This document shows, one piece after another, positions 11,513 to 58,954 of a stretch of 64,000 bases of DNA (position 1 is the stretch's first letter; each line of letters opens with the position of its first letter). The translations under genes were made by a program, and so were the position numbers. The notes under the pieces were generated by a model. It saw nothing but the letters and a program-made list of their open reading frames with translations. It had not been told where the DNA came from and did not search any database. This stretch comes from Beijerinckiaceae bacterium (GTDB taxonomy: Bacteria; Pseudomonadota; Alphaproteobacteria; Rhizobiales; Beijerinckiaceae), in contig CANJVX010000006.1 of NCBI GenBank assembly GCA_947478405.1, forward strand, positions 1-64,000, written 5' to 3'.

Positions 11513-12586
11513 TTATTCTTCCGTCTTCGCGCCTTCAAGCACTTTCAGATCGGGCTTCAGAACTGACGCATCTGCCAGCTTCTTGATGAGATGGGGCGGC
11601 GTAGCATAAACATCTTTAAATGCGGCCATCATTTCCTCACCCGTCATCGGGTTGACCTCCTGATCACTTTTTTCTGCCTCAATGATCAGATCCTTGTCCT
11701 TCATCGCCTCGTTAAAGGCCTTGCGCAAAGCAGCGACGCGATCAGCGGGCACGGCTTCAGCCACAAAGAGCGGACGACCCAATTCAAACGCTGTGAACTG
11801 GACCTTCAAAATCTGCTTGGTGTCGGCATCCTCCGCCAGATCGACAATGAGGGGTACATTTTTCAAATCCTGATGCGTGCGCAGGCCCATCTGGAAGAGG
11901 ATATTGTATTTGCCGCTTTCCACCATGTCCTTGTAATGGGGCTTGATACTTGTCCAGGAGAAGGTACCACGACCATCAACCTCACCACGTTCCATGGCGA
12001 GATTCATTTCATTGCCGCCGGGGAAACCCGCGATGACCTTAAACTTCATGCCCATCAAATTGCGAAGCACATAGGGAATGACGACACTTTCCGTGCCCAC
12101 GCCTGTGCCTGCGATCACCGCCTCGCGGTTTTTCAAATCGGCCCAGCTCTTGATGCCGGTGCGCGAATGAACGATGGCAATCGACGTGTCGGAATTGACA
12201 CTGCCGATCCAATTCAAAGTCCGCGGATCGAATTTTGCTTTTGAGGCTTGACCCAGCAGCGGCTCGAAAGGAACGCCACGCTGCGGGGCGCCAATATTGG
12301 TACCATCGGCGGGAGCCGCATTGGCGACATGGTTGGTCATGACCAGACCACCAGCGCCAGGCATGTTGCGGACCAGCACTGTCGGATTGCTGGGGATGTA
12401 TTTGCCAAGATGACGCCCCACGAGGCGCGCATTGGTGTCATAGCCACCACCTGCAGACAGGCCGACATAAATCGTGACGGTTTTTCCCTTATAGAAATCA
12501 GCAGGTGACTGGGCCGCGGCCCCTGTCGCGCTCAACGCGCTCAAAAGCACAACTACAGATCCCGACCGGCCAGCGACAGACAGCAT
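11513..12586 (-). CDS. TctC-like tripartite tricarboxylate transporter substrate-binding protein (GGGYD subgroup)
   Basis: A 357-residue periplasmic binding protein. ATG 12586 follows GGGGGGAACTATT and opens a signal peptide ending ATGAAAQ (about residue 25). The mature protein begins ADFYKGKTVTIYVGLSAGGGYD, then PSNPTVLVRNMPGAGG and DPRTLNWIGS. This GGGYD-x(3)-R pattern separates it from classic Bug/TctC proteins, which have GGSTD or similar. Such proteins deliver organic acids to a TctAB permease, but no TctA or TctB gene lies in the window. The gene stands between convergent and divergent neighbours, so its ligand has no operon clue. Confidence 0.9.
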   Translation of the reverse strand: MLSVAGRSGSVVVLLSALSATGAAAQSPADFYKGKTVTIYVGLSAGGGYDTNARLVGRHLGKYIPSNPTVLVRNMPGAGGLVMTNHVANAAPADGTNIGAPQRGVPFEPLLGQASKAKFDPRTLNWIGSVNSDTSIAIVHSRTGIKSWADLKNREAVIAGTGVGTESVVIPYVLRNLMGMKFKVIAGFPGGNEMNLAMERGEVDGRGTFSWTSIKPHYKDMVESGKYNILFQMGLRTHQDLKNVPLIVDLAEDADTKQILKVQFTAFELGRPLFVAEAVPADRVAALRKAFNEAMKDKDLIIEAEKSDQEVNPMTGEEMMAAFKDVYATPPHLIKKLADASVLKPDLKVLEGAKTEE

Positions 12587-12768
12587 AATAGTTCCCCCCA
12601 AATATTCTTATTTGGGCGATGCTAACCCGAAAAAGTCTGGGCGGAAACAGCATTAAGCCGGCTTCAGATCACAGTCTCGCGGGGAGACCCACGCTTTGGC
12701 GTTTGAAATCGGGCCCAGAGGCCTTACATGCTGCATTGCGGAAATTCACGAGACAAGGTTTGCAGCAC

Positions 12769-13881
12769 ATGGCCTATGACGCCCTCTTCCAGCCTCTCAA
12801 GCTCGGCGCACTCGCGCTGGCCCATCGCGTCGTGATGTCGCCTCTGACGCGCCTGCGGTCGCGCCAGCCAGGTAACATCCCCCAGGAGATGAATGCCGTC
12901 TATTACGGCCAGCGCGCCACCAAGGGCGGGCTCATTATTGCGGAAGCCACCGACATTTCTCTCACTGCACGCGGCTATCCCGGCGCGCCGGGCATCCATA
13001 CGGATGAACAGGTTGCGGGCTGGCAGCTGGTGACCGCGGCCGTGCATGCCAAGGGTGGTTATATTTTCGACCAGATCTGGCACACGGGTCGCATCTCGCA
13101 TTCGTCCATGCAGCCTGATGGCGTCGTGCCCTTTGCACCCTCCGCTATCGCGGCTGGCGGCAAGCATATGACTGTCACCTTCCAATCGGCGGAATTCGAA
13201 ACACCACGCGCTCTGGAGACAGCCGAAATCGCGGGCCTCATCGCCGATTTCCGCAAAGCTGCAGAAAACGCCAAAAAGGCGGGCTTTGACGGCGTCGAAG
13301 TACATGGCGCCAACGGCTACCTGATCGGCCAGTTCCTGCATGATGGTTCCAACATGCGCACCGACCAATATGGCGGCTCAATCGAGAATCGCGCGCGCTT
13401 CCTGATGGAAGTCGTCGACGAAGTGGTGAAGGTTTGGGGCGCCGATCGCGTCGGTGTGCGCTTGTCGCCATGGGGTAAAAATAATTCGCAGATCGAAAGC
13501 GATCCTTTGGCGCTCTATTCCTATGTCTGCACGCAATTGGGCCAGCGCAAGCTTGCTTATGTGCATCTGGTCGAGCCGCGCGCTGATCAAAGCACCGATG
13601 TGAATGATGCCAATGCGCCGGACGCTGCAGCCACATTCAAATCGAAATTTGGTGGCGTCGTCATCGGTGCTGGCGGCTTCAATGGCGACAGCGGCGCGCA
13701 AACCGTGGCCGACGGCAAGGCGGATGCCATTGCCTTTGGTCGTCATTACATTGCCAACCCTGATCTGGCCGAGCGCCTGCGTCTGGGGGCGGCGCTCAAC
13801 GCCTATGACCGCGCAACCTTCTATGGCGGTGGCGACAAGGGCTATACGGACTATCCAACGCTCGATGCAGCCAAGGCCTGA
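12769..13881 (+). CDS. Old yellow enzyme family alkene reductase (NADH:flavin oxidoreductase)
   Basis: A 370-residue FMN enzyme with a TIM-barrel fold: LFQPLKLGALALAHRVVMSPLTRLRS at the start (first barrel strand), HTGRISHSSMQP about residue 105, VEVHGANGYLIGQFLHD with the His-x-x-Asn pair that binds the substrate, and a C-terminal IAFGRHYIANPDL. It resembles NemA/OYE-like ene-reductases, which use NAD(P)H to reduce activated C=C bonds and nitro compounds. The open frame goes 50 codons further upstream, but homology begins at the Met at 12769 behind AAGG. A strong terminator-like hairpin follows. Confidence 0.93.
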   Translation: MAYDALFQPLKLGALALAHRVVMSPLTRLRSRQPGNIPQEMNAVYYGQRATKGGLIIAEATDISLTARGYPGAPGIHTDEQVAGWQLVTAAVHAKGGYIFDQIWHTGRISHSSMQPDGVVPFAPSAIAAGGKHMTVTFQSAEFETPRALETAEIAGLIADFRKAAENAKKAGFDGVEVHGANGYLIGQFLHDGSNMRTDQYGGSIENRARFLMEVVDEVVKVWGADRVGVRLSPWGKNNSQIESDPLALYSYVCTQLGQRKLAYVHLVEPRADQSTDVNDANAPDAAATFKSKFGGVVIGAGGFNGDSGAQTVADGKADAIAFGRHYIANPDLAERLRLGAALNAYDRATFYGGGDKGYTDYPTLDAAKA

Positions 13882-13890
13882 CCATTTTTT

Positions 13891-13925
13891 CGGGGCGATG
13901 CATAGCGTCGCCCCGATCATTTTTA
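13891..13925 (+). terminator. Intrinsic terminator after the old-yellow-enzyme gene
   Basis: An eight-base stem CGGGGCGA/TCGCCCCG with a nine-base loop is followed by ATCATTTTT. The rest of the gap to the ammonium transporter start (13926-14190) holds no recognisable gene. It should contain the transporter promoter, but no confident sigma-70 or sigma-54 element was seen. Confidence 0.75.
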
Positions 13926-14190
13926 AACCAACGCATTCTTCGTCCTCGACCCGTTTTCTGCAGTTTTAGCGCCCGCCGCGTGCAGTTTTTGCAAAAATGG
14001 GCCTCGCTTTTTCCAAAACAGCGACGCAAACTCCTTAAATGCCGCGGTATTCAGGCAAGATTAGCTATGCGCTCTTCTTAAGCAGAATAGCGCCAGACCT
14101 GTGCATTAGATTGCAGCATTGTGCTTCAGCTCTGGGCAAAAGCCCGATTTCCAACTAAAGGGCAAGAAAACGACATTCGGGAGGTCGGTC

Positions 14191-15489: not shown

Positions 15490-15496
15490 TCTTTCC

Positions 15497-15528
15497 AAAA
15501 GGCGGTCTTCGGGCCGCCTTTTTCTTTT
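15497..15528 (+). terminator. Intrinsic terminator after amt
   Basis: GGCGG TCTTCGGG CCGCC, flanked by AAAA on the left and TTTTTCTTTT on the right, eight bases after the amt stop codon. Confidence 0.88.
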
Positions 15529-18270: not shown

Positions 18271-18288
18271 TCAGAGCTCAGCCCTTCT

Positions 18289-18393: not shown

Positions 18394-18405
18394 AAAGAAA
18401 AATCC

Positions 18406-30303: not shown

Positions 30304-31383
30304 TCAGTCCTTGCCCGCGCGCGCCGCGTAATTCATCAACCAGTCGCGCTCTTCATCCTTGATGGTCAGAGCGCGGCGTACATCCTCCTCTACGTCGTCG
30401 CCCGTTTCATAATCGGGTACGAAGCCGACGAGTTTTTCAGCTTCCTTTGCGTAGTCGGGATCTTTCTCGAATGCGCGGATCGCCTCGCGCACAGCCTTCA
30501 TCGCTTCGACCGGCACCTGCGGCGGGAAGACAATCATCCGCTGCATCGCCGATGATGTGGCCAGAACACGCTTATAGGCTTCCCACATCTCACCCGACGG
30601 CTCCTTGCCTTTCACCTCTCGATAAAACTTATCGAAGGATGGCATATTCAGGCCACGCACCTGCGAGGGCTCGGCGAAACGTGAGCCGTTCCAGCCGGGA
30701 TTGTAAAAAAGCGGTAAAGCTGTACCGAGCGCGATCACACCGGGCTCAACCACAGAGCGATAGCCCGGTGGGCTTTCAGAAAACATGCTGATCTCGCCAC
30801 GGTCAAAAGCCAGACGCGCAGCGGAATTGCTCTTGTACCCTGTGACATATTTATATTTCATGCCGAGCATGTCGGCTGTGAGCCGCAACAAGAGATCTTT
30901 CGATGAATCGGACGACAAGCCGCCGATCACAATATTCTCGCCCTTGATGATATCGGCCGGCGTCTTGAGACCCGGCGCAATATCGGCACGGGCGTAATAG
31001 ACCGTCGTGCCTGGCTGATAGGCCACGAATTGATAGCTGAGAATATCAACGCGGGCCTTTTCTTTCACGCTGGCATGACGCCAGGCGATGCCGGAAAGAT
31101 AACCAACTGTTGTGCCATCGCGCGGGGCTATCTCGCCCAAAAAATTCGTACCCACCGCACCGCCTGCTCCATCCATATTCTGGACGATGATATTGGGCTT
31201 GCCAGCCAAATGTTTGGCCAGAAACTTCGCAAAGAGACGACCTTCAATGTCGGTCGGTCCGGCAGAGGCGAAATTGACCAACACGGTGACACGTTTGCCT
31301 TTATAAAAAGGCTCATCAGCAGCACAGGCTGCAGACGCCATTCCGATCACCAAAATACATGCAAGAGCGCTGCGCATGCTCAT
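30304..31383 (-). CDS. TctC-like substrate-binding protein (divergent member)
   Basis: About 359 residues. ATG 31383 is five bases after GGAGG and opens a signal peptide (MSMRSALACILVIGMASAACA). The mature part reads EPFYKGKRVTVLVNFASAGPTD, then IVQNMDGAGGAVGTNFL, so it resembles the GGGYD subgroup in FYKGK but has SAGPTD where others have GGGYD, and DGAG for PGAG. It may therefore bind a different ligand. It is convergent with the bicupin gene, and the small cupin gene precedes it on the same strand. Confidence 0.87.
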   Translation of the reverse strand: MSMRSALACILVIGMASAACAADEPFYKGKRVTVLVNFASAGPTDIEGRLFAKFLAKHLAGKPNIIVQNMDGAGGAVGTNFLGEIAPRDGTTVGYLSGIAWRHASVKEKARVDILSYQFVAYQPGTTVYYARADIAPGLKTPADIIKGENIVIGGLSSDSSKDLLLRLTADMLGMKYKYVTGYKSNSAARLAFDRGEISMFSESPPGYRSVVEPGVIALGTALPLFYNPGWNGSRFAEPSQVRGLNMPSFDKFYREVKGKEPSGEMWEAYKRVLATSSAMQRMIVFPPQVPVEAMKAVREAIRAFEKDPDYAKEAEKLVGFVPDYETGDDVEEDVRRALTIKDEERDWLMNYAARAGKD

Positions 31384-31458
31384 GCCTTCCTCCATGTCTG
31401 CCCGCATCTGTCGCGCGGATCATTTCTAGCACGCTAGCAAGCTTTGGCAGCCTGCGCA

Positions 31459-36469: not shown

Positions 36470-37093
36470 TCACACGTCGAAGAAGACAGTTTCGTTATCA
36501 CCCTGAAGGATAATGTCGAATGTATAGACCGTCTTGCCATCCTTCTGTGAAGGTGTGGCAATCAATGTGTCACGGCGCTTCTTGAGTTCAATGCCGCGCA
36601 GGATCGGATCAGCCTCATTGGCCTTTTCCTCATCAGCGAAATAGATGCGCGTGTTGAGGCCCATATTGATGCCGCGCGCAACGACCCACAGACTGATGTG
36701 AGGCGCTTGCACTTTGCCCCCGCGGCCTGCCACAGGACCCGGCTTTACCGTGTAGAAACGGTAGATGCCAGTCTCGAAATCGGTGCAGGCACGGCCCCAG
36801 CCACGGAAATTCGGATCAACCGAACCCGTCTTCTGGCGGTCACCCGGATGGTTGTAACGACCATCCGCATTGGCCTGCCAAGCTTCGATCAAAGCATCGC
36901 GCACGAGGCTTCCAGAACCGTCGAACACACGGCCTTCGATGACAATCTGCGCACCGCGCGTGGTCGCGCCGACGAGATTATTGTCGAAGTTATTCTGAAA
37001 AATATCAAAGCCTGCTTGATGCGGCGCCAAACCGATATGGACATAAGGGCCTGCCGTCTGCGAGGCGGTTTCCTTGAGATATTTCACGCTCAT
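36470..37093 (-). CDS. pcaG: Protocatechuate 3,4-dioxygenase alpha subunit
   Basis: A 207-residue protein of the intradiol dioxygenase fold. LKETASQTAGPYVHIGLAPHQ at the start and DALIEAWQANADGRYNHPGD in the middle match PcaG; HISLWVVARGINMGLNTRIYF is the C-terminal core. It pairs with PcaH, which holds the catalytic iron, to open the protocatechuate ring to beta-carboxy-cis,cis-muconate in the cytoplasm. It begins three bases after the pcaH stop. pcaB, pcaC and pcaD are not present in the window. Confidence 0.96.
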   Translation of the reverse strand: MSVKYLKETASQTAGPYVHIGLAPHQAGFDIFQNNFDNNLVGATTRGAQIVIEGRVFDGSGSLVRDALIEAWQANADGRYNHPGDRQKTGSVDPNFRGWGRACTDFETGIYRFYTVKPGPVAGRGGKVQAPHISLWVVARGINMGLNTRIYFADEEKANEADPILRGIELKKRRDTLIATPSQKDGKTVYTFDIILQGDNETVFFDV

Positions 37094-37096: not shown

Positions 37097-37942
<846 letters not shown>

Positions 37943-38917: not shown

Positions 38918-39044
38918 GCGCTACCATTCAAAATCAGCCTTCCCTGATTGTCTTTGCCCTCCTGAGGCGGGCGCCGGCTTGCCGCGCGGACACGAGCGCC
39001 GTAGCCTGTCCCCAGAGAACAAAAAAACATCTCGGGAGGAATCT

Positions 39045-40025
39045 ATGGCCCTGTCTCGCCGTCATCTTTTGAAGGCTGCCTCTGGTGCGGCTGCTTTGCC
39101 TTTGCTCGGCATTAAAGCCCAAGCGCAAAGCACTTATCCCAACAAACCCATCCGCCTCTATGTCGGCTTTGCGCCCGGCGGCTCCACGGATACGGTCGGC
39201 CGCCTGATTGGCCAATCACTCGGCGAGCGTCTCGGCCAATCTTTCGTCATTGAAAATCGCCCCGGTGCCGGAACCAATATTGCAACCGAAGCCGCCATTC
39301 GCGCGACACCCGATGGCTATACACTTTTGATGGTCGGCCCATCCGCCGCGATCAACGCGACGCTCTACAAAGAGCTGAATTTTAATTTCCTGCGCGATGC
39401 AGCCCCCATTTCAAGCGTGGCGAGCCAAGCGCAAGTCATGCTCGCCAATCCCAAACTCCCGTTCAAAAATGTCGGCGAATGTATTGCCTATGGCAAAGCC
39501 AATCCGGGCAAGCTGACCATTGCCTCTGCAGGCATTGGCTCCATCGGTCATTTGTCGGGCGAATTGTTCAAGATGAAAGCCGGCATTGAAATGGTGCATG
39601 TGCCATATCGTGGCGCAGCGCCAGCTTTGGCAGATCTTGTCAGCGGGCAGGTTGATATTTCTTTCGCAGGCATTGCAGGCGCTGTGGAGTTTGTGCGCGC
39701 GGGTACATTGCGCGCACTCGCTGTCTCAACCAAGACACGCTCGGACAGCCTGCCAGACGTGCCAACCGTGGCAGAATTTGTGCCCGGCTATGAAAGCAAT
39801 GACTGGTTTGGCATGGCGGCGCCCAAAAATACGCCGCCGGAAACTATCGCCCTGCTCAACAAAGAGATTGCAGCCTGCTTGGCTGATTCCAAATTGAAAG
39901 AACGCCTCAACCAATTGGGCTGCGCCCCGCTCGCCATGTCGCCACAAGATTTCGGCGCCTTGGTGCGGGACGACACGCAAAAATGGGGCGAGGTCATCCA
40001 GACCGCCAAGATCACCCCGATCTAA
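39045..40025 (+). CDS. Classic Bug/TctC family substrate-binding protein
   Basis: A 326-residue binding protein with a twin-arginine leader (SRRHLLKAASGAAALPLLG). The mature part shows the classic Bug signatures: RLYVGFAPGGSTDTVGRLIG, FVIENRPGAGTNIATE, and later MVHVPYRGAAPALADLVSG. Bug proteins of this type bind organic acids, with the Asp of GGSTD near the ligand. A strong GGGAGGAATCT precedes ATG 39045. It is separate from the GGGYD subgroup found elsewhere here. No TctAB genes accompany it; pcaHG lies nearby but is transcribed away. Confidence 0.95.
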   Translation: MALSRRHLLKAASGAAALPLLGIKAQAQSTYPNKPIRLYVGFAPGGSTDTVGRLIGQSLGERLGQSFVIENRPGAGTNIATEAAIRATPDGYTLLMVGPSAAINATLYKELNFNFLRDAAPISSVASQAQVMLANPKLPFKNVGECIAYGKANPGKLTIASAGIGSIGHLSGELFKMKAGIEMVHVPYRGAAPALADLVSGQVDISFAGIAGAVEFVRAGTLRALAVSTKTRSDSLPDVPTVAEFVPGYESNDWFGMAAPKNTPPETIALLNKEIAACLADSKLKERLNQLGCAPLAMSPQDFGALVRDDTQKWGEVIQTAKITPI

Positions 40026-40027: not shown

Positions 40028-40060
40028 CAAAACGCCCCGGACAAAGGGGCGTTTCTTTTT
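40028..40060 (+). terminator. Intrinsic terminator after the Bug-type binding-protein gene
   Basis: AAACGCCCC GGACAAA GGGGCGTTT followed by CTTTTTT. It also lies at the end of the convergent FAD monooxygenase gene. Confidence 0.9.
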
Positions 40061-41646
40061 TAAGCGAGGCCAACGCAGTGGCGTAGAAGGTCTGCAGCAG
40101 GTCGATCCAATGTCTCACCCGACCAAACCACATATTGATCGGGTCGCACCAGAACGAGTGCGGCTTCATAGGCCTCACGACCATGCGTGCGCGTGTCACG
40201 CAAAATATCAAAGGGTATCTTGAGCGCTTGCGCGGCATCCGCAAAAGCTTTGACCTGCGCCTCATCGGCATCAAGCGCAATCAGCGTAAAACCTTGGCCC
40301 AAAGCATCAAAGGTCAATTCACCATCTGACAGCAGCACGGGTGCCAGATGATGACCTGCGCGCGCCTTCACCTGATGCACGCCATGGGCGGAATTCTTGC
40401 CACCCAACGGCCCGAACATCACGGGCGAGCCTTCATAATTGGGCTCATATTGCTGGAAGCGTGAGCCGATGTCGGTCTCGCGGCCCTTCCACGCGGCTTC
40501 AAACTCGGCACGATCACGCTCTGGATTGAAGCGATGCAAGAAATCCGCATCGCGCTTGATGCGCGAGGTGATGAAATCATTCGCCGTATCCCAGAACACC
40601 GGACGGCGCTCATCGCTATAGCTTTCGAGAAGCTTGTCCCCGCCCCAGCCCTGCACGCGTGCGGCGAGCTTCCAGCCCAGATTGACGATGTCTTCAAGGC
40701 CATTGTTAAGGCCAAAGCCGCCATAGGGTGGATGCGCATGAGCGGCGTCACCTGCAATGAAAATGCGCCCGCGCTGATATTCATTGGCGACCGCCACGCG
40801 CATTTGCCAGAAGGACAAATGTTCGAAATCACAAGCAACAGGAAGTCCAACGGCCTCTTGGATCAGACCCAGCGAGTCAAAAGTCTCTATCTTGGAGTCA
40901 GGCGGCACAGGTGCATGGAAAAACCAGCCATCAGGCACATCAATGCGGCCGAAGAATTGCCAATAGCCTTCAAGCTCGGGGCGAATGACGCGATAGGTAG
41001 AGCGCTCGGGAAAGCGCTTCATTTTCTCATCAAGCTCTGACGAGCGAAAGACGGCGAGCAACATGGTTTGCTCGTAATCTTGCGTGGTGCGCGCAAGGCC
41101 GATCTGATCGCGCACAGAAGACCGCGCGCCATCGCAGCCAACCAGATAATCACCCGTGATGATGCGCTGATCTGACCCATCCTCACGCGAAATTTCGACA
41201 CTGACTTTCTGCGCATCCTGCGAGATAGTACCCGCCACATGGCCAAGCATGAGATTGACGCTTTTCAGCTCTTCAATCTTTTTGCGAAGAACCATTTCTG
41301 TCTGATATTGCGGCAGGCGCTCATTGTCTTGCGAATAGAAAGAGCGCACCAATTCACGACCAGCTGGCGCATGCCAATAATCGCTCATCAGATTGCCATA
41401 GGCGGTCAATTCGCCAATGGCATAGCCTTTGGGCATGAGGCGCGCCGCACGCATATCCTCCACCACGCCCCAGCGGGCGAAATGTTCCATCGTACGTTGT
41501 GTAAGATTTTGTCCTTTGGGAATGCGGCTCAAGGTCTCGCGCGGCTCGATTACCACGCACGAGACGCCCCGCAGACCTAGCGCGACGGCCAAACCAACAC
41601 CCACTGGCCCGCCACCGACAATCACAACATCAAAATGATCAGACAT
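40060..41646 (-). CDS. FAD-dependent aromatic hydroxylase (PheA/MhpA-type flavoprotein monooxygenase)
   Basis: A 528-residue flavoprotein monooxygenase. The FAD dinucleotide-binding motif is VVIVGGGPVGVGLAVALG (about residue 7). GDAAHAHPPYGGFGLNNG about residue 290 is the second FAD motif of the class A hydroxylases. The long C-terminal tail resembles the thioredoxin-like domain of phenol/3-(3-hydroxyphenyl)propionate hydroxylases. It would hydroxylate an aromatic acid or phenol using NAD(P)H and O2. It follows a TctC-like gene by 33 bases, so uptake and hydroxylation are probably co-expressed. Confidence 0.94.
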   Translation of the reverse strand: MSDHFDVVIVGGGPVGVGLAVALGLRGVSCVVIEPRETLSRIPKGQNLTQRTMEHFARWGVVEDMRAARLMPKGYAIGELTAYGNLMSDYWHAPAGRELVRSFYSQDNERLPQYQTEMVLRKKIEELKSVNLMLGHVAGTISQDAQKVSVEISREDGSDQRIITGDYLVGCDGARSSVRDQIGLARTTQDYEQTMLLAVFRSSELDEKMKRFPERSTYRVIRPELEGYWQFFGRIDVPDGWFFHAPVPPDSKIETFDSLGLIQEAVGLPVACDFEHLSFWQMRVAVANEYQRGRIFIAGDAAHAHPPYGGFGLNNGLEDIVNLGWKLAARVQGWGGDKLLESYSDERRPVFWDTANDFITSRIKRDADFLHRFNPERDRAEFEAAWKGRETDIGSRFQQYEPNYEGSPVMFGPLGGKNSAHGVHQVKARAGHHLAPVLLSDGELTFDALGQGFTLIALDADEAQVKAFADAAQALKIPFDILRDTRTHGREAYEAALVLVRPDQYVVWSGETLDRPAADLLRHCVGLA

Positions 41647-41679: not shown

Positions 41680-42720
41680 TTAGCGCGCGGCTTCAGAAAT
41701 CTGGCGCGCGCGCTCGATGACCTCAGGAGAAGCCGCATAGACACGATTGAGGATCGACGCAATCTCATCCGCAAAAACCGGATCTACATCAATCGCCTGC
41801 TTTTCAGCTTCCGCCTTGTATTCGACATCCTTCATCGTCTCGGCAAAAGCCGCTCGCAGGGTGTTTGCACGATCAGCTGGCATATTTGCCGGACCTGCCA
41901 ACGGCCAAGCGATCGCGAGTCGCGCCAAAAACACTTCAAGGAACTGGCGATCGGCCTGATCCTTCACCAGATCAAGCGCTGAGGCTACATTTGGCAGATC
42001 AACGGCTTTGGTAAGACCAAGCTGTAATTGCACATCGATCTTTTTCTCAGGCACCCATGCCGGGCGCGCGACTTTCAGATAGCCCCAAGAAAGACCCGCC
42101 ATGCCATCGGCTTCGCCGCGCTCAACTGCGAGCAACAATTCGCTTGCACCAGGATAGCCGGTGACGATCTTCATCTTTGTCTTGAAGACGGCATTCATAA
42201 TGAGCGGGAATGTCGCCGTGTCGGCGCCGCCACCAGATGTGGCGATAACGACCTCCCGGCCCCTCAAATCATCCAGCGTTTTGAAATTGGCTTGTGTACG
42301 TGTGAAGACAAGATTGGTCTCGCGGCTCGGGCTGCCAATCCATGTCAGAGTACGCGGATCAAATTGCGCCTGCTTGTTGCCCATCAGCGGCTCGAAGGGC
42401 GTGCCACGCGAGAAGGTCGCAATGGCTGTTCCATCCTTGGGTGCCAGATTGGCCATGTGGTTGATGGCCGTGAGCGAGCCAGCACCCGGCATATTCTGAA
42501 CAATCACTTTCGGATTGCCGGGAATATGTTTGCCGATATAGCGCCCAACTGCGCGGGCATTGAGGTCATAACCACCGCCGGGCGAAAAGCCGACGATGAT
42601 GGACAGATTCTTGCCCTTGTAAAAATCTTCCACAGAATCGGCGCGCGTATCGGTGGTGCCAAATGTGGCGCCTGCAAGAAGCGCCCATGCCGCCATGGCT
42701 CGTTTGGACCGTGTGCTCAT
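41680..42720 (-). CDS. TctC-like substrate-binding protein (GGGYD subgroup), paired with the FAD hydroxylase
   Basis: A 346-residue periplasmic protein. Signal peptide ends near DTRADS (residue 28). FYKGKNLSIIVGFSPGGGYD is followed by NARAVGRYIGKHIPGNP, VQNMPGAGSLTA and DPRTLTWIGS. It is the first gene of a two-gene unit with the FAD hydroxylase, 33 bases apart, which suggests that its ligand is an aromatic acid that the hydroxylase attacks. No TctA/TctB is adjacent. Confidence 0.92.
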   Translation of the reverse strand: MSTRSKRAMAAWALLAGATFGTTDTRADSVEDFYKGKNLSIIVGFSPGGGYDLNARAVGRYIGKHIPGNPKVIVQNMPGAGSLTAINHMANLAPKDGTAIATFSRGTPFEPLMGNKQAQFDPRTLTWIGSPSRETNLVFTRTQANFKTLDDLRGREVVIATSGGGADTATFPLIMNAVFKTKMKIVTGYPGASELLLAVERGEADGMAGLSWGYLKVARPAWVPEKKIDVQLQLGLTKAVDLPNVASALDLVKDQADRQFLEVFLARLAIAWPLAGPANMPADRANTLRAAFAETMKDVEYKAEAEKQAIDVDPVFADEIASILNRVYAASPEVIERARQISEAAR

Positions 42721-42822: not shown

Positions 42823-43926
42823 TCACGAGCGCGCGGGCGCCGCCTTGCGCACAAGAGCCGCACCTTTAACTTGCGCATAGACACTCATACCCTGCGACAA
42901 CCCCAAGAGCCGCCAGGAACGGGCGGTGACACGCGACAGGAGACGCGCACCCTGCCCGTCTTCGCCAAGGCCAAGCAGCGCCACCATTTGATGTGCGCCG
43001 CTTTCCTGCACGCTCAAGATTTTGGCGCGGAACACATTCACAATCGTACTCTCGTTGGGTTGAACCAAAGCAAGGCTCACATCGCCTGCGAGAATGCGCA
43101 AACGTTGCGAGGCACCAATTGACAAAGGCGCCGAGGGGACAAGGAAGCGCCCACCCGCAACAACCAGCGCCGCTATACCATCTTGCGCGTCGTAAGCCTC
43201 AACGTGCGCATCCAGACTGACCGCTGCCTCCTGGGAAGACACGAGCGGCAAAGAAGGGTCGCTTTGTAAAGCGCTGAGCGGGCCTGCGGCCATCACTTGG
43301 CCTGCACGCATCAAGACCAGATGATCCGCCAAACGCTCCACTTCGCTCATGTCATGGCTGACATAAAGAACGGGGATAGCGAGGCTCTCATGCAGCCGCT
43401 CAAGGAAGGGAAGAATCTCGTCCTTGGTGAGACGGTCGAGGGCCGAGAGAGGCTCATCCATCAGCAAGATTTTGGGCTGCGAGAGAAGCGCACGGCCCAT
43501 GGCCACGCGCTGGCGTTCACCACCCGACAAAGTTTCTGGCGCGCGATCCAGAAATGTTTCAATCCCCAAAAGCGTGACGACTTCGTCAAAACGAATGACA
43601 TGATCTCTGGCCTGCTTTGGCGCGCCATACAGGAGATTGGCGCGGACGGACAAATGCGCAAACAGGCTGGATTCCTGAAAGACATAGCCCAGAGCCCGCC
43701 GATACACGGGGCGAAAATGATGCGCATCCTGCCAGACATCACCGGCAATCGAACAATAGCCATCACGCAGATGCAACAGGCCTGCAACGCCACGCAGCAC
43801 AGAAGTTTTGCCGCATCCAGAGGGACCAAAGAGCGCCGTCACGCCGTGTGCGGGCACTTCGAAAGCGGCATTGAGGGAAAATTGCCCCAGCTGGCCTGCC
43901 AAATGAACCTTGATCGTCGCGCTCAT
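42823..43926 (-). CDS. modC: Molybdate ABC transporter ATP-binding protein
   Basis: A 367-residue protein. Walker A is [10 protein letters not shown], the ABC signature [15 protein letters not shown], Walker [13 protein letters not shown]. The C-terminal region (about 285-355) is a MOP/TOBE molybdate-binding domain. It energises molybdate import. It overlaps modB by four bases and is the last gene of modABC. Confidence 0.95.
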
Positions 43927-44609
43927 GAGGCGCGCCTCATCATGCGCTTTTCAATCAGCATCATGGCCAGCACAACGCAGAAGGAGAAGACCACCATGCC
44001 CGCTGAAAGAAGATGCGCCTGCGTCCATTGCGATGTTTCGACATAGTCAAAAATTGCGACAGAAAGAACTTTCGTCTCGCCGGGAATATTGCCGCCGATC
44101 ATCAAGACAACGCCGAATTCACCCACTGTATGCGCAAACCCGAGGATCGCACCCGTAAGAAAACCGGGGCTTGCCAAAGGCACAGCCACAGTCCAAAAAG
44201 CACGCCATGGCGAGGCGCGCAAAGTCGCTGCGGCTTCAAGCGGGCGATCACCGATTGCTTCAAAAGCATTGCGAATGGGCTGCACCACAAAGGGGAGCGA
44301 AAAGAGCACCGAGCCAATCACAAGGCCCGTGAAAGAAAAGGCGAGTGTGCGCGCACCCCAGAGCGAGGCGAGCGCGCCACCGGGGCCTTGCGGGCCCAGC
44401 ACGACGAGCAGATAAAAACCAAGCACTGTCGGGGGCAAAACGAGCGGCATGGCAACAATGGCTGCCAGAGCCTCTTTCCAAAGGCTTCTGGAACGCGCCA
44501 GCCACCAAGCGAGCGGTGTGCCGATAGCGAGCAGGATCAGCGTCGCGAAAGTCGCGAGCTTCAGGGTCAAAAAGACCGATTGCCAAATCTCTGCTGAAAA
44601 TCCTGCCAT
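43923..44609 (-). CDS. modB: Molybdate ABC transporter permease
   Basis: A 228-residue membrane protein with about five hydrophobic segments ([19 protein letters not shown] at the start). [22 protein letters not shown] is the EAA loop that docks ModC. Its [21 protein letters not shown] is characteristic of ModB. It lies between modA (nine bases upstream) and modC. Confidence 0.96.
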
Positions 44610-44618
44610 GTCTTCCGC

Positions 44619-45371
44619 TTAACTCACACCCGACACATAGCCGAATTTTTCGATGATCGCACGCGCCTCCGAGCTTTTGAGAAAGGCCAGAAAGGCTTTC
44701 GCGACCGCATCACTCTGGCCCGCTTTCAAAAGCACCGCATCTTGCCGGATTTCAGAATAAAGCGCTTGCGGGACCAACCAACGCGAGCCACCGCTTTGAC
44801 CCACCAATTGCGAGAGCGCGACAAAGCCCAATTCTGCATTGCCACTGTCGATGAATTGGTAAGTCTGGGCAATCGAATTGCCCATCACGATTTTGGATTT
44901 CAGCGCATCATTGAGCTTCAGCGATTTCAGCACATCGAGCGCGGCTACGCCATAAGGTGCCGCTGCGGGATTAGCGATGGCGATTTTCGAAAAAGCCTGC
45001 GCCTGCAAAGTCGCCTCACCATTCACAAAGGCCGGATTCTTGCTCCAAAGAACAAGCTTGCCGATGGCATAAGTGAAGCGTGTGTCGGACAAGGCGAGGC
45101 CCTCTGCAGCAAGAGCTTTGGGACGCTCCTCATCGGCAGAGAGAAACACTTTGAACGGTGCGCCTTGCTGGATTTGCGCCAGCAATTGACCAGACGACCC
45201 GAAGCTCAACACGGCCTCATGCCCCGTCTTGGCTTTGAAGGTGACCGCGATCTCTTTGGCAGCATCGGCAAAATTAGCCGCCACCGCGACATGCGTGGAG
45301 CCAGCAAGAGCTGGCACGCCACCCATCACAAAAGCTTCAAAAGACACCCAAAAACAGACGAGAAAGCGCAC
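44619..45371 (-). CDS. modA: Molybdate-binding periplasmic protein
   Basis: A 250-residue binding protein. GTG 45371 follows GGAGG at eight bases and opens a signal peptide ending ALAGS; the mature N-terminus HVAVAANFADAAKEIAV is typical of ModA. LSFGSSGQLLAQIQQGAPFKV holds the Ser residues that contact molybdate. It feeds ModBC. No Mo-box was searched convincingly; the 66-base gap to the terminator upstream must carry the promoter. Confidence 0.95.
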   Translation of the reverse strand: MRFLVCFWVSFEAFVMGGVPALAGSTHVAVAANFADAAKEIAVTFKAKTGHEAVLSFGSSGQLLAQIQQGAPFKVFLSADEERPKALAAEGLALSDTRFTYAIGKLVLWSKNPAFVNGEATLQAQAFSKIAIANPAAAPYGVAALDVLKSLKLNDALKSKIVMGNSIAQTYQFIDSGNAELGFVALSQLVGQSGGSRWLVPQALYSEIRQDAVLLKAGQSDAVAKAFLAFLKSSEARAIIEKFGYVSGVS

Positions 45372-45403
45372 GCGGTGATCCTCCGAAGCCAAAACTATAC
45401 ATG

Positions 45404-48455: not shown

Positions 48456-48767
48456 TTATTCAACTGTCAGCTTCGCGTCTTTAATGATCGGCGCCGATAG
48501 ATTGAAATCTTTCTGGATGCGATCACGCAAATCCTTCGGACCCTTGGCGATGGAGAATGTATAATTGGGAGTCAGGAATTGCTTTTCAAAAGCCGGATCA
48601 CTGAAAATTTCCTGCGTGGCGTGCGAGAGTTTTTCAACCACATCAGCCGGCGTGCCCTTCGGCGCGAAGAGTGCATACCAGGAGCCTGTCCCATAGCCAG
48701 CCACGCCTCCCACGATAGAGGTTACTACTGCTGCGACGGCAACTAGTACAATCTCTTCGGGTGTCAT
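48456..48767 (-). pseudogene. Chimeric gene scar: TauE/SafE N-terminus fused to TctC C-terminus
   Basis: The 103-codon frame starts with MTPEEIVLVAVAAVVTSIV followed by GGVAGYGTG, the N-terminal membrane segment and glycine motif of TauE/SafE transporters. At about base 48683 it switches in frame to SWYALFAPKGTPADVVEKL, the start of the last third of classic TctC proteins, and runs to a natural TctC end. The likeliest cause is a deletion that removed the rest of an upstream exporter gene and the first two thirds of a binding-protein gene. No clear ribosome binding site is seen, so it is probably not functional, although the frame is intact. Confidence 0.8.
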
Positions 48768-51111: not shown

Positions 51112-52128
51112 TTATTCTGCGGCATGCATGACCTTTTTCATGCGCGCAACAATGGCAGGTGGCGTGTTGCCAGTAGCAGCGACGACCTTTTGCAACTCCG
51201 CACCGACCAAGGGCGTGACATCGGCATGCAATTTTTCAGCATCTGCCAGAAAATCTGGGGCTTTAGTCATCGCATCAAAAGCGGCCCGTAGAATTGCAAC
51301 GCGATCAGTGCGTGTATCGGGCGGCGCGAAAAAAGCGCGTCCCACAGAGGCCGTCGACGCATAAAGACGCAGCATTGCAACATCCTCAGGAGTGACGCCC
51401 AGTTCACCCACGGCGGGCACATCCGGAATGGCCGGCATGCGCTCGACCGTTTCCGACAAGAGAATATGAACCTTCTTTTGCTCCAGCCAATCCTTATGCG
51501 CCGCATTGAGATGTGACAGCAGACCGGAAGCCGCGTCGACCTCGCCTTTTTCAAGCGCCAGAAGAACATCACCAGATGAGGGATAACCGGTCACAATTTT
51601 AAATTTGGTTTTGGCGCCAGCATTCATCAACATGGGATATCCTTGGGACGGGGAACCCGCTCCTGTGGTCCCAACAACGATCTCCCGGCGTCTGATATCC
51701 TCAATGGAACGGACACCCGACGCTGCGGAGACAATCATGACCTCGCCAGAAGACGTCAGCCGCCCAATCCAGTTGAAGCGTGCAGCTTTATATTGCACGC
51801 CCGATGCACCCAGAACTTCTTCGAGTGCAACAGTCTGCGAGGCAATGCCAATCGCCGTTCCATCTTTCGGCGCCACGCTATACATCCAGTTAGCAAGCTT
51901 GGTGCTGCCCGCACCCGGCATATTCTGGACAATGACGGAAGGAGCACCGGGCACCGATCGGCCAAAATGCCTCGACAAGAGTCGGCCATAAAAATCATAC
52001 GAGCCGGTATTGCCAAATCCAATATGGACGGTCAGCGTGCGACCCTTAAAAAATGAATCCTCGGCTCGAGCACGTACGCTGCCCGACATTGCGAGCGCCA
52101 CCAAACCGAAAGCGGCAATTTTACGCAT
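51112..52128 (-). CDS. TctC-like substrate-binding protein (GGGYD-related subgroup)
   Basis: A 338-residue periplasmic protein. ATG 52128 follows GGGAGGGATC; signal peptide ends SVRARAE. FFKGRTLTVHIGFGNTGSYD is followed by SRHFGRSVPGAPSVIVQN and MPGAGSTKLANWMYSVAP. The motif is GNTGSYD rather than GGGYD, a mild variant. It lies 182 bases downstream of the flavin monooxygenase gene on the same strand, so the two may share a substrate. Confidence 0.9.
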   Translation of the reverse strand: MRKIAAFGLVALAMSGSVRARAEDSFFKGRTLTVHIGFGNTGSYDFYGRLLSRHFGRSVPGAPSVIVQNMPGAGSTKLANWMYSVAPKDGTAIGIASQTVALEEVLGASGVQYKAARFNWIGRLTSSGEVMIVSAASGVRSIEDIRRREIVVGTTGAGSPSQGYPMLMNAGAKTKFKIVTGYPSSGDVLLALEKGEVDAASGLLSHLNAAHKDWLEQKKVHILLSETVERMPAIPDVPAVGELGVTPEDVAMLRLYASTASVGRAFFAPPDTRTDRVAILRAAFDAMTKAPDFLADAEKLHADVTPLVGAELQKVVAATGNTPPAIVARMKKVMHAAE

Positions 52129-52310
52129 GATCCCTCCCAATGCCGCAGTCAATCCGAGATCCAGCCAAGCGATGCCACGCAGATGTGCATCAAGTATCGC
52201 GGAACTCCGCCTCCGCCGCTTTATTTATTCCACCACGGTCGCCGGTGATGGGAGCGCTGTCAAGCCATCCACGATCTTGATGGTAGCTGTAGACAACAGG
52301 CCAACCTGCC

Positions 52311-55100: not shown

Positions 55101-55117
55101 ATCAACTAACCTTCTAC

Positions 55118-56167
55118 TTATTGAGATGCTGCACGCAATTCTTGCGTAGCGCGGTCAAGAACTTTTGGGTCTGTGGCATAGACGCGATTGACCAGAGCCA
55201 AAATATCATTGCCCGGTTTAGACTCAATTGTAGCACCCAGAGCTTCCGCATCTTTACGGAAATCTGCATCAGCGATCATCATCTTGAATGCGACACGAAA
55301 CTCTTCGAGAACATGGACCGGAACACCCGGCGGGGTAGCTAGAGGCCGGCCATAGGCTAGTCGATCGATAAAAAGCTGAACAAGAATCCGCTCTTCCTCG
55401 GTTTTCGTAAATTCAAGAATGGTCGGCACATCGGGAAGATCTGCACTTCGTTTGTCGCGCAACTGCATCAAGACATGGATTCGCTTGCTCGCCACCCAAT
55501 CGGGCTTGCTGATCTTGATGCCGTCCCAGTCGGAGCCAATCAGCCCATGGACCTCGCCCGATTCCATCGCCAAAGCGATTTGCGAGGTTCCGACATAGCC
55601 CGCCACCAATTTGATCCGCGTACCCAGAACACTGTTGAGGAGACGAGGCCAGATCGTGACATCTGAACTGGGTGCGCCTCCACCAATGATCGCATCTTTA
55701 AACAAATCATTGGCGGTTTTGACTGGCGACGCATGCCACGAAATAGCAACAGCCGTATGACCATTGAGGCTGCCTATCCAACCAAACCGCCGGGCATCAA
55801 AATTAGCCTGCGTGTTACCAAAGAGTGATTCAAAGGCCGTTGTACTCGGCACAAGCCCGATGGTCGAACCATCGCGCGGCGCAACATTGTACAGCCAGTT
55901 GGTCATGATCAACTGACCTGCGCCCGGCATATTGGTCGCAATCAGCGTGGGATTGCCATTCATCACGCGTCCTAGATGTCGGGAGGCGAGACGGCCGTAA
56001 AGGTCATATCCACCACCGACACTGGTTCCGATGACCAGTGTGATTTTTCTGCCCGTATTTGCGGTCTGGGCCTGAGCCCGAACAACAATCCCGATGCTGC
56101 ATAAAAATACGGCTATGAGGACAAGTATGAGTTTGTAGATAGCTGACGCCTTATCACTTATGATCAT
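55118..56167 (-). CDS. TctC-like substrate-binding protein (GGGYD subgroup), paired with amidohydrolase
   Basis: A 349-residue periplasmic protein. ATG 56167 follows GGAGTGAAGGC; hydrophobic leader LILVLIAVFLCSIGIVV ends near AQA. KITLVIGTSVGGGYD, then ATNMPGAGQLIMTNWL, match the subgroup. It sits in a compact operon with the amidohydrolase downstream (17 bases) and the HbpS-like protein upstream (41 bases). Confidence 0.92.
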   Translation of the reverse strand: MIISDKASAIYKLILVLIAVFLCSIGIVVRAQAQTANTGRKITLVIGTSVGGGYDLYGRLASRHLGRVMNGNPTLIATNMPGAGQLIMTNWLYNVAPRDGSTIGLVPSTTAFESLFGNTQANFDARRFGWIGSLNGHTAVAISWHASPVKTANDLFKDAIIGGGAPSSDVTIWPRLLNSVLGTRIKLVAGYVGTSQIALAMESGEVHGLIGSDWDGIKISKPDWVASKRIHVLMQLRDKRSADLPDVPTILEFTKTEEERILVQLFIDRLAYGRPLATPPGVPVHVLEEFRVAFKMMIADADFRKDAEALGATIESKPGNDILALVNRVYATDPKVLDRATQELRAASQ

Positions 56168-56208
56168 GCCTTCACTCCGGGCCAATGTCAGACTGATTCA
56201 GGACTGCT

Positions 56209-56718
56209 TCATTTAGCGTCGAGCCTGCCTTGAATTTTCGCAATACCAGCGAGCGCGCATTTTTCATCCTGCGTTGATCCGGTTGAACCACCAACACCAA
56301 TGGCGCCCACTGTCTGACCGTTGGATTTGATCAAGACACCACCGGGCGCCAGAATGAGCCCTGGAATGCCCTGGATGCGTGCCACAGATGCCGGATCCTT
56401 GGTGATGCGCGCGGCAATTTGGGCCGACGTTGTCTCACCGCTCGCTCGCGAATAGCTTAGCACTGTAAAGGCTTTTGCATGCGCGGAATATGCCGAATGA
56501 ATAGTCGTGAAGGGATCATGAAAAGTAACCAAGACGCGAGCATGATGATTCATCACTTCCACAGAAACAGGATGCCCGTCAGCTTTGCATTGATTTAAAG
56601 CGGCGGAGGCCGCTTCAATAGCAACATCCAATGGCATGTAACGCTCACTAGGAAGACTTTGCGCGATGCCCGATTCGCAAGCGAGCGTAAGACTGGCAGC
56701 AATCAAAACATGTTTCAT
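56209..56718 (-). CDS. HbpS/GlcG family heme-binding-like protein, secreted
   Basis: A 169-residue protein with signal peptide MKHVLIAASLTLACESGIA. It has the DUF336 fold: VEVMNHHARVLVTFHDPF-like core, AHAKAFTVLSYSRASGETTS and the glycine-rich GGVLIKSNGQTVGAIGVGGSTG. Members include the extracellular heme-binding HbpS and the poorly understood GlcG. Its operon partners are a diheme cytochrome c, a binding protein and an amidohydrolase, so it may act in a periplasmic oxidation step. ATG 56718 is preferred over GTG 56739. Confidence 0.88.
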   Translation of the reverse strand: MKHVLIAASLTLACESGIAQSLPSERYMPLDVAIEAASAALNQCKADGHPVSVEVMNHHARVLVTFHDPFTTIHSAYSAHAKAFTVLSYSRASGETTSAQIAARITKDPASVARIQGIPGLILAPGGVLIKSNGQTVGAIGVGGSTGSTQDEKCALAGIAKIQGRLDAK

Positions 56719-56762
56719 AGCCTCTGCCTTTCTGATCACCTGTGGACTTCCGGAATGAAAGC

Positions 56763-57662
56763 TTAGGGCGCAACCGTTTCCATCGGGGGCAACGAGCGTA
56801 AAAATGCAACCAGTGCATTGAGATCATCGGAATCCATGCGCGCATACATACTGAAATCCATCACGCCAACCAGTTTGCCGCCATCGGGCCGCACACCTCT
56901 GGTGATGGCTGCTTTGATCTGATCGTCCGACCAAGAACCAAGCTGCACCGGAGTGATATTGGCGGCTACGACCGTCCCACCACCGCGCGCCGTATAGGTA
57001 TTTCCGCCGGCACCCAATCGCGCCAGATCAGGCAGCCCATTGATGCGCGGCGTGTGGCATTGGAAGCAATGGGACACAGTCACGCCAAGGTAGCGGCCGC
57101 GGGCCAGCTTATTGTCGAAATTGATTTCGGCAACGGCACTCACCGGCTCCAAGCTTGATGCCGTACGCTGTGCGCCAATCCGCTCGACAGGATTTTTGAT
57201 CGGCGGCACCAAACGTAAATAAGCGACGATCGCTTTGACGTCAGCATCCGAAAGATCCCGATAGAAAAAAGTACCCATGGGCGCTCGCACTGGCGCACCA
57301 TCGGGTCGAACTCCGTTACGGATAGAGGCTATGATCTGTTCATCCGTCCAGGCGCCGAGGCCCGTCTCAGGATCAGAGGTTAAATTTGATGCGAGCAAGC
57401 CACCTACACGCTGCCCGCCGGAGAGATGTCTGCCTGGAACAAGTCTCCCCTCGGAATCTTTGGGCGAGTGACAGCTCGCACAAATACCGATGGTCACAAG
57501 ATATTCACCCCTTGCGGCCAAACCGGAATCTGCTGCCAGCAATGCCGTGGGACTCGCACATGCCAAAGCCAGCAGGAGGCTGCAAGCCAAGAACTGTGAC
57601 CACAGGCGGCGCCACCGATCTCGCAGACCGCGCGGATCTTCGGACGTGACTAAGACGTGCAA
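56763..57662 (-). CDS. Periplasmic diheme cytochrome c
   Basis: A 299-residue protein. A leader peptide (hydrophobic stretch about residues 22-42, ends LLAADS) is followed by two class I domains, heme sites CASCH at 61-65 and CFQCH at 199-203. The C-terminal domains resemble the cytochrome subunits of alcohol/aldehyde or gluconate dehydrogenases. It starts at TTG 57662, supported by GGGGAGGGGCGG. It heads the operon HbpS - TctC-like - amidohydrolase, and may receive electrons from a periplasmic dehydrogenase elsewhere. Confidence 0.9.
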   Translation of the reverse strand: MHVLVTSEDPRGLRDRWRRLWSQFLACSLLLALACASPTALLAADSGLAARGEYLVTIGICASCHSPKDSEGRLVPGRHLSGGQRVGGLLASNLTSDPETGLGAWTDEQIIASIRNGVRPDGAPVRAPMGTFFYRDLSDADVKAIVAYLRLVPPIKNPVERIGAQRTASSLEPVSAVAEINFDNKLARGRYLGVTVSHCFQCHTPRINGLPDLARLGAGGNTYTARGGGTVVAANITPVQLGSWSDDQIKAAITRGVRPDGGKLVGVMDFSMYARMDSDDLNALVAFLRSLPPMETVAP

Positions 57663-57895
57663 CCGCCCCTCCCCTTTTTAGCCTCACACGGGCCTTCTTA
57701 TTGCTTCAACGATAGGCCAGCTGATGCACATGGAGCAACCGCCCCGCGGCAATTTAGGGCGATAATGGATAGTGGCTCATCCTAATATCCTAGTATCTCT
57801 TTGGCCACTCACAGGGAAAGATGGTTACGCCGAGCCGGAAGTAGCGCTGCGCCTCAACGCGTTGGGCCGACCGGAGAAGGATGGGGAGGATGCAG

Positions 57896-58954
57896 ATGCC
57901 GTTCAGAATGGCTCATGAATGCACGCGCGTCGCCGCCCTCGGATTAAGCTTGCTTTACAGCGCAAATTTAAGCGTCGCAGCAGAGGATTATTTCAAGGGC
58001 AAGACAATAAGCATCTACACCGGCGCCAGTGCAGGCGATGGCTATGATGTTTATGCCCGCCTTCTGGCCGTGCATTATCAGCGCTATATCCCTGGCAATC
58101 CAACAATTGTCATCCGCAACATGCCCGGCGCAGGCAGCCTGAAGGCTGCTAATTATATTTATGAAATAGCTCCGAAGGATGGCACCGCCATAGGAACGGT
58201 TGGCGGCGGCACCGCAACTGCCGAACTCTTTAAATCCAAAGGAGTGCGATTTGATCCACGCTATTATGCTTGGATCGGCAGCATGAATGCAGAAGTAGGA
58301 CTTGTGCTAGCCTGGAAGACGGTTCCCGTTGATCGCATTCACGATCTGTTCAATCGCGAGTTGGTGGTGGGGGGCGGCGGCCCAACTTCAGGCAATGTTG
58401 TTTTTGCCAATGTCATGAACAAGGTTCTTGGTACACGCTTCAAATTAATCGCCGGATATAAAAGCACCGGCGACATTGCTCTCGCCATCGAACGTGGCGA
58501 GCTGGAAGGCACGGCCAGCTATCATTACTCCAGCATCATCACCAGCAAACCAGACTGGATCACCAATGGCCAAGTGAAAGTCCTCTTACAGGATTCGCTG
58601 CGGCCCCATTCACTCTTTCCCGATGTACCGGTTGTCATTGATCTGGCCAGGACGGCCGAACAGAAAGACATTCTGGAAGTCGTCTTCGCTCGGCAGGAGA
58701 TGGGGCGCCCCTTCATGCTGCCGCCCGGCACGCCGGCAGAGCTCGTCACCCTCTTGCGTCGCACCTTTGATGCGGCCATGCGCGACCCGCAACTGGTGAG
58801 CGACGCCAAACGCCAGCGCCTCGACCTCAACCGCCCCATGAGTGGCGAGGACATCCACGGACTGATTGATCGTCTCTATACATTCCCGGCGGACATCGTC
58901 GCCAAAGCCGCGGAAGCCACCGGGGAAAATGCCGCAGAGGGCAGCGCCGATTAG
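57896..58954 (+). CDS. TctC-like substrate-binding protein (GGGYD-related subgroup)
   Basis: A 352-residue periplasmic protein. ATG 57896 is six bases after GGGGAGG and gives a leader ending LSVAAED. YFKGKTISIYTGASAGDGYD has GDGYD for GGGYD; IPGNPTIVIRNMPGAGSLKA and DPRYYAWIGSMN follow. It is divergent from the cytochrome c operon across about 230 bases. No partner gene follows it. Confidence 0.92.
   Translation: MPFRMAHECTRVAALGLSLLYSANLSVAAEDYFKGKTISIYTGASAGDGYDVYARLLAVHYQRYIPGNPTIVIRNMPGAGSLKAANYIYEIAPKDGTAIGTVGGGTATAELFKSKGVRFDPRYYAWIGSMNAEVGLVLAWKTVPVDRIHDLFNRELVVGGGGPTSGNVVFANVMNKVLGTRFKLIAGYKSTGDIALAIERGELEGTASYHYSSIITSKPDWITNGQVKVLLQDSLRPHSLFPDVPVVIDLARTAEQKDILEVVFARQEMGRPFMLPPGTPAELVTLLRRTFDAAMRDPQLVSDAKRQRLDLNRPMSGEDIHGLIDRLYTFPADIVAKAAEATGENAAEGSAD

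Follow-up and report, generated by a model that had tools for sequence, protein, structure and literature searches.

The closest described relatives of the genes considered here are the solute-binding proteins (SBPs) of the tripartite tricarboxylate transporter (TTT) family, TctC and the Bug proteins (PF03401; BugD, Bug27, TphC, MatC and AdpC), with their TctA/TctB permeases. A TTT SBP and its permease need not be encoded together: TphC, whose gene lies among catabolic genes, acts with TpiBA, encoded elsewhere, in terephthalate uptake by Comamonas (PMC8556258). Fusion of TctA with TctB has been described as rare (review PMC5812351). In the census of Rosa et al., TTT SBPs were counted by TBLASTN at E 1e-15 with characterised classic queries, and a huge expansion of orphan TTT SBPs with few permeases was reported in Rhodoplanes (PMC5994714). 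The present analysis concerns the TctC-like genes in a stretch of 64,000 nucleotides (the window; positions 1 to 64,000, forward strand, of contig CANJVX010000006.1, assembly GCA_947478405.1, Beijerinckiaceae bacterium). Six of them belong to a variant of the TTT SBP family, here termed D, that is real and large, has been largely overlooked and has a matching permease clade; classic TctC/Bug proteins are termed K. The expansion of orphan TctC proteins was already known. What is new is the D subfamily, the fact that classic searches hardly see it, and its pairing with a type of permease; no description of a divergent TctC subfamily or of D-type TctAB pairing was found among the open-licence papers that the searches listed.

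Within the TTT SBP family the six window proteins form a clade of their own, distinct from classic TctC/Bug. In a tree built from 138 D and 17 K proteins, a single branch divided the two labels (Shimodaira-Hasegawa-like approximate likelihood ratio test, SH-aLRT, 99; 155 rows), and K remained apart (support 98) when the tree was enlarged by 65 sequences from elsewhere; the K set in the tree and in the residue comparison came from this genome only. An earlier note on the window had proposed a separate subgroup with five or six members among seven TctC-like genes; the tree and the diagnostic residues agreed and put the number at six, and the copy starting at 38979 was the only one of the window placed with K. 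Relative to K, the D proteins carried an insertion of two residues, with the insert residue G68 in 135/138 D and 0/17 K, an extra glycine (G188; 135/138 and 0/17) and an invariant glutamate (E203; 138/138 and 2/17). Tyrosine at position 51, where TphC has A36, was present in 100/138 D and 0/17 K. The exact string GGGYD occurred in 57 of the 138 D proteins and is a theme of the type, with no strict rule. The earlier note had given the motif, NMPGAG and WIGS as common to the subgroup. GGGYD was found in the copies starting at 11513, 41680 and 55118, GDGYD at 57881 and GSYD at 51112, but the copy at 30304 read AGPTD. NMPGAG was kept in five of six (30304 read NMDGAG), and WIGS in four of six (51112 had WIGR and 30304 neither).

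D proteins in the genome (3.03 Mb in 79 contigs, 95% complete) were defined as matches to a profile of the six window copies (A1), the best 150 of 173 candidates being scored. The profile found 142 places at or above 93 bits, the next match having 69 bits, and the gap recurred on the fetched stretches (142 open reading frames, ORFs, above 90 bits; next 71 bits). The genome total was 142 D against 17 full-length K proteins plus one K fragment of 85 aa, and one 90-aa ORF on contig C56 (36.5 bits) was counted as neither. D genes made up 4.9% of the genome and numbered 46.8 per Mb, a density of the same order as in the TTT census (PMC5994714). As in that census, most were single genes: among the 140 of 142 retained by the gene caller there were 101 single genes, 16 pairs, one triple and one quadruple. 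Nearest-paralogue identity had a median of 45.6% and reached 70% in 2 of 138 D proteins, so recent copying does not account for the set. A swarm of pseudogenes was rejected as its origin (only four D proteins were shorter than 300 aa, all reaching contig ends), and contamination was judged unlikely, as D genes lay on many contigs and in sister genomes and the listed contamination was 0.66%. With the genome's own classic proteins as queries, in place of the published ones, a search at E 1e-15 recovered 4 of the 142 D genes against 17 of the 18 K entries, and 85 of 142 D genes were recovered at E 1e-5. A classic-query census would miss nearly all D proteins of this genome; E 1e-15 was the threshold of the census in PMC5994714, and Rhodoplanes itself was not searched for D.

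The fold was examined on the 41680 protein, whose AlphaFold2 model had a mean predicted local distance difference test (pLDDT) of 92.7 and a predicted template modelling score (pTM) of 0.86. All top 17 Foldseek rows were TctC, Bug, TphC, MatC and similar proteins. Template modelling (TM) scores, normalised to the query, were 0.63-0.70 to TctC (4x9t), Bug27, open TphC and the terephthalate-binding protein 8hk9 in its apo form, and 0.56-0.60 to other TTT SBP structures. The protein was 14-19% identical to solved TctC/Bug structures and matched Bug27 (2qpq) with phmmer (E 1.9e-6). A profile of 45 D sequences (A7) found eleven distinct PDB sequences, all of TctC/Bug type (best E 7.6e-24). Membership of the TAXI group of SBPs of tripartite ATP-independent periplasmic (TRAP) transporters was considered and dropped: TIGR02122 gave only 26.5 and 29.7 bits to two window D copies against a cut-off of 84.35, no match up to E 1 to the other four, and the closest solved structures were again TctC/Bug. 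An N-terminal hydrophobic segment, shared with TctC/Bug, was present in 116 of the 118 D proteins in which it was testable (20 of the 138 were not).

In TphC, the GG..D...R loop binds the ligand carboxylate by its backbone (PMC8556258). In an alignment with TphC, the equivalents of G33, G34, D37 and R41 were kept in 121-136 of the 138 D proteins. The residue roles are those reported for TphC (PMC8556258) and the mapping to D columns was made here. The column equivalent to the TphC specificity position P86 lay at the 95th percentile of variability among D columns, that of T155 at the 91st, and that of Q150 only at the 46th. The backbone loop and the gene context suggest that D proteins bind a small carboxylate; the kept loop and these column values fit, but do not prove, a diversity of carboxylate ligands.

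No match to TctA or TctB was found across the window, as the earlier note had it. Its wider phrase, that the proteins work without local TctAB, held for the window and not beyond: this genome had D-type TctAB genes outside the window, and in other taxa such genes were close neighbours of D SBPs. The whole-genome search returned six TctA (two at contig ends) and five TctB matches. Three D-type permeases were found, all outside the window, which makes about 47 D SBPs for each of them. Pfam placed TctA and TctB in one frame on contigs C1 (692 aa) and C34 (687 aa), and C4 carried a D SBP operon with separate tctA and tctB. The fusion described as rare (PMC5812351) has a counterpart here in one chain. 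In this genus, fusion-length TctAB belonged to the D-type TctA clade: counting complete TctA matches of at most 432 bits in frames of at least 640 aa, complete fusion-length D-type TctAB was found in 22 of 25 genomes. The TphC system differs in that one SBP was studied, TphC is a classic TTT SBP by sequence and fold, and TpiA and TpiB are separate (PMC8556258).

For the TctA tree, 60 TctA regions were fetched from 14 same-genus genomes, and neighbouring SBPs were classed by D and K profiles. The tree (83 rows) covered 63 of 85 same-genus matches, 22 being left out (the partial matches, the G010 matches and some that were complete) and later same-genus matches not being included. It had two clades (support 100), and many D-type TctA were as long as a TctA-TctB fusion (about 690 aa). 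The nearest same-strand SBP within 1300 bp of K-clade TctA (n = 37) was K in 29 cases, D in 1 and absent in 7; for D-clade TctA (n = 46) it was D in 24, K in 1 and absent in 21. Sixteen D-clade rows were biased, their loci having been fetched via a D SBP; with these removed (n = 30) the counts were 10 D, 1 K and 19 none. Within 700 bp, the 67 unbiased rows gave 10 D and 0 K in the D clade against 0 D and 29 K in the K clade by hand count (Fisher p 1.6e-9, a value too small because of relatedness). Among TctA rows of at least 600 aa (n = 31), the neighbouring SBP was D in 9, K in 1 and absent in 21.

The D clade of SBPs thus has a matching clade of TctA, and in other taxa members of the two lie close together; in this genus they are mostly dispersed. 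A same-strand D SBP lay 71 bp from a fusion-length permease in Caballeronia, 216 and 1050 bp in two Paracoccus, 1087 bp in Paraburkholderia, 1531 bp in Pacificitalea and 71-72 bp in two Rhodospirillales metagenome-assembled genomes (MAGs), and in Neorhizobium a permease lay 3140 bp from a D SBP on the other strand. Phyllobacterium had a D SBP with separate tctA and tctB; members of the D clade are encoded with TctA and TctB in the C4 operon, Phyllobacterium, Paracoccus and others. In the SBP tree, the 26 permease-linked D SBPs required 10 changes, where shuffled labels required 24.8; they therefore cluster in part but do not form one lineage. Dedicated tctAB genes beside each window copy in relatives, which the earlier note had named as a refuting result, were seen for one orthologue only, that of 11513 in L164 (74% identity), 656 bp from a fusion-length D-type TctAB, which supports the pairing; orthologues of all six were not sought systematically. 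As a separate observation, four Candidatus Binatia MAGs (L143, L145, L146 and L147) had two different D SBPs in tandem behind one TctA.

The clearest catabolic context in the window was that of the D-type SBP of 346 aa at 41680..42720 (-), which starts a unit with a flavin adenine dinucleotide (FAD)-dependent aromatic-ring hydroxylase directly downstream (40060..41646, -; FAD_binding_3 and Rng_hyd_C) and protocatechuate 3,4-dioxygenase beta (PcaH; 37097..37870, -; TIGR02422, 365 bits, cut-off 296) and alpha (PcaG; 36470..37093, -; TIGR02423, 250 bits, cut-off 126). None of the 25 NCBIfam models listed for the hydroxylase reached its cut-off. Copies of the 41680 protein with 87-91% identity were found in MAGs labelled Beijerinckiaceae or Rhizobiales (L117-L121), which, from their isolate names, presumably come from lake water. 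In two of these sister MAGs, L117 and L118, SBP, hydroxylase, PcaH and PcaG were consecutive. The gene corresponding to 37958, presumably of LysR type, lay between members of the series in L119 and L120, and L119 also had the classic SBP there (97-98% identical to the 38979 protein). The L121 stretch ended within the SBP. The hydroxylase-SBP adjacency, with PcaH and PcaG, was thus kept in four relatives (L117-L120), and because of this company a hydroxylated aromatic acid is the likely ligand of the 41680 protein. All three genes just upstream (42823-45392, -), presumably a molybdate ATP-binding cassette (ABC) transporter, were matched in L119 and L120.

Across the genome, 202 of the 212 immediate neighbours of D genes were analysed (7 short or open-ended ones and 3 without a single locus were omitted). 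They encoded diverse catabolic enzymes, the families listed including amidohydrolases, cupins, luciferase-like monooxygenases, class II aldolases, TauD dioxygenases, arylmalonate decarboxylase-like proteins, UbiD and coenzyme A (CoA) transferases. Controls were genes farther from D genes, 100 of 120 drawn from 219 eligible, too few for tests per family. Pfam families numbered 131 and 115 in the two sets of 101 neighbours, against 157 in the 100 controls, which shared some of the families (amidohydrolases, 3/100; CoA transferases). Arylmalonate decarboxylase-like neighbours (6/202) were absent among the 25 families listed for the controls; since only those 25 were listed, no enrichment is claimed. 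The earlier suggestion that each copy probably feeds a different catabolic enzyme was borne out as a pattern of neighbours, and conserved synteny ties one copy, 41680, to its enzymes.

The reading preferred here, to which a probability of roughly 0.6 is given, is that many D SBPs, each encoded near a catabolic enzyme, would feed a few shared D-type TctAB permeases. Each D SBP would bind a carboxylate used by the enzyme encoded next to it, close over it by means of the backbone loop described for TphC/Bug, and pass it to one of the few permeases; the SBP would set the specificity and the permease would be the common gate. In the case of 41680, a hydroxylated aromatic acid would be taken up and degraded by the neighbouring flavin hydroxylase and PcaHG. 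A sharper form, a hub-and-spoke arrangement in which 50 to 150 chemically distinct SBPs with their own catabolic cassettes dock on one or a few fused TctABs, is tentative and falls slightly short of even odds. Genome G018, with a single TctA match, of fusion length and D type, beside up to 54 D-profile matches, is in line with such an arrangement.

Several results weigh against the shared use of permeases. The strongest result against the hub was G009, in which the single TctA detected was of K type although up to 112 D-profile matches were present; an assembly gap (about 390 contigs), instead of a true lack of D-type TctA, is possible. G010 and G016 were also without a complete fusion-length frame, which slightly lowers confidence in both forms of the reading. 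Seven of the ten unbiased D pairs were one orthologous operon, leaving about four independent cases in the genus besides those of other taxa. Of the 22 fusion-length permeases of the genus subclade, 19 had no same-strand SBP within 1300 bp (2 had D and 1 had K), so the pairing within the genus rests mainly on clade membership; in five of those 19 a whole or fragmentary D SBP lay on the opposite strand, 76-1416 bp away (L166, L167, L179, L182 and the C1 permease of this genome). The types were also crossed in L195, where an orthologue of 11513 (79.5%) lay 1066 bp from a K-clade TctA, and in L163, where a K SBP lay 1244 bp from a D-clade TctA. The fusion to TctB was tested with Pfam in this genome only and judged by length elsewhere, and the contact between SBP and permease, the transport and the ligand are all inferred from sequence.

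The crossed pair in L195 and the K-type TctA of G009 would also be expected if D SBPs used mixed partners, such as K-type TctAB, ABC, TRAP or other carriers, with no common hub. An ABC ATPase domain was present in 2 of 101 neighbours of one set, and in the TAXI-GltS pair an SBP is partnered by a permease of a different kind (PMC12344293). SBP and TctA types nevertheless match at clade level, and few transport families were among the 25 listed per neighbour set; this explanation is regarded as unlikely. That the D proteins are ordinary Bug proteins that merely diverged, a subgroup without a partner permease of its own, is consistent with the fold and carboxylate-loop backbone they share with Bug/TctC, but hard to reconcile with the single branch (support 99), the diagnostic insert and residues, present in 135-138 of the 138 D proteins but in 0-2 of the 17 K proteins of this genome, and a TctA clade of their own. 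It is given very little credence.

Sensory function has a basis in the family: the Bordetella TTT system Bct has a sensory role (PMC5994714; BctC-BctE, PMC4996985), and in Rhodoplanes TTT SBP genes lay near 14 of 22 kinase genes (PMC5994714). On this explanation most orphan D SBPs would signal their ligands to membrane sensors or chemoreceptors, not to a permease. This genome had only 23 matches to HATPase_c, a family not limited to sensors, for its 142 SBPs. None of the 23 lay within 3 kb of a D gene, though 22% of the genome is that close, and 3 of 23 lay within 5 kb, where 29% of the genome lies. This spacing speaks against kinase-linked sensing, and no signalling domain was among the 25 families listed for either neighbour set, chemoreceptors not having been searched for; chemosensing as the main role is regarded as quite improbable. 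Periplasmic delivery, in which D SBPs would buffer ligands for periplasmic oxidases without transport, could draw on a cytochrome c gene (56763) and on the 32177 protein, presumably a pyrroloquinoline quinone (PQQ) dehydrogenase, near D genes in the window. The enzymes best linked to a D SBP, the FAD hydroxylase and PcaHG, are however cytoplasmic, and D SBPs adjoin permeases in other taxa, so that this too is very improbable. Shared permeases are favoured over kinase-linked sensing and periplasmic delivery because this genome carries D-type TctAB outside the window and other taxa have it next to D SBPs.

All seven TctC-like ORFs of the window were complete and their coordinates were confirmed. 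Pfam TctC scores of the six D copies were 16.5-46.1 bits against a cut-off of 27, which four of them reached (27.9-46.1 bits), and no NCBIfam model reached its cut-off for any of the six. The copy at 11513..12601 (-; 362 aa) scored 27.9 bits, and 525.8 bits to the D profile containing it. The one at 30304..31407 (-; 367 aa) was a divergent outlier with 23-26% identity to the other five, and scored 16.5 bits, below the cut-off, and 428 bits to the D profile containing it; its nearest proteins among the relatives compared were Binatia SBPs (29.5-30.9%), and the adjoining protein had a cupin match just under cut-off. The 41680 copy was also below the cut-off (20.2 bits). The copy at 51112..52152 (-; 346 aa; 46.1 bits) lay beside a flavin mononucleotide (FMN) monooxygenase of the NtaA/DmoA family, and that at 55118..56185 (-; 355 aa; 39.8 bits) beside an amidohydrolase; the last was at 57881..58954 (+; 357 aa; 29.4 bits).

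The copy at 38979..40025 (+; 348 aa) was the only classic one of the seven, as had been noted (Pfam TctC, 244.1 bits), and had a possible twin-arginine translocation (Tat) signal (TAT_signal, 17.1 bits, under the cut-off of 22.7). The fragment reported at 48.5 kb was real: a 103-aa ORF at 48456..48767 (-) matched the C-terminus of TctC only (Pfam, 40.9 bits) and resembled the classic copies most. The opening residues of this remnant were unlike TctC. They had seemed TSUP-like, but Pfam returned TctC alone, and a TSUP/TauE partner was dropped. The adjoining gene presumably encodes a PrpF-like protein. At 59779-60702 (+) there was a UbiA-type protein, presumably the bacteriochlorophyll synthase BchG, which would hint at a phototroph.

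Ten same-genus genomes had from 54 to at least 150 D-profile matches each at E 0.001, a threshold at which some classic copies may be included; together with the 142 copies of the present genome, this recurrence excludes chance as the source of the pattern. Matches at E 1e-30 were found in 26 of 289 genomes drawn from the class (G000 included; at most 7 candidates per genome scored); the draw also held three further genera of this family, and none of them had a match. G153 and G256, two genomes from a different family of the class, carried 45 and 85 D matches at E 1e-25, so large D sets are patchy. The same two genomes had 12 and 7 TctA matches, several of fusion length and adjoining D SBPs by coordinates. 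In plasmid records (Sinorhizobium, Rhizobium, Paracoccus, Paraburkholderia and others) 95 places were found in 76 records, the best place in each record having less than 60% identity.

Orphan TctC/Bug proteins have long been unexplained, and a permease clade belonging to one type of them makes the question of how orphans work directly testable. Bacterial transport capacity may be undercounted by classic-query censuses, and the SBP-enzyme cassettes provide a list for guessing ligands. If the hub is true, acquisition of an SBP-enzyme cassette would be enough to gain a new substrate, and no new permease would be needed.

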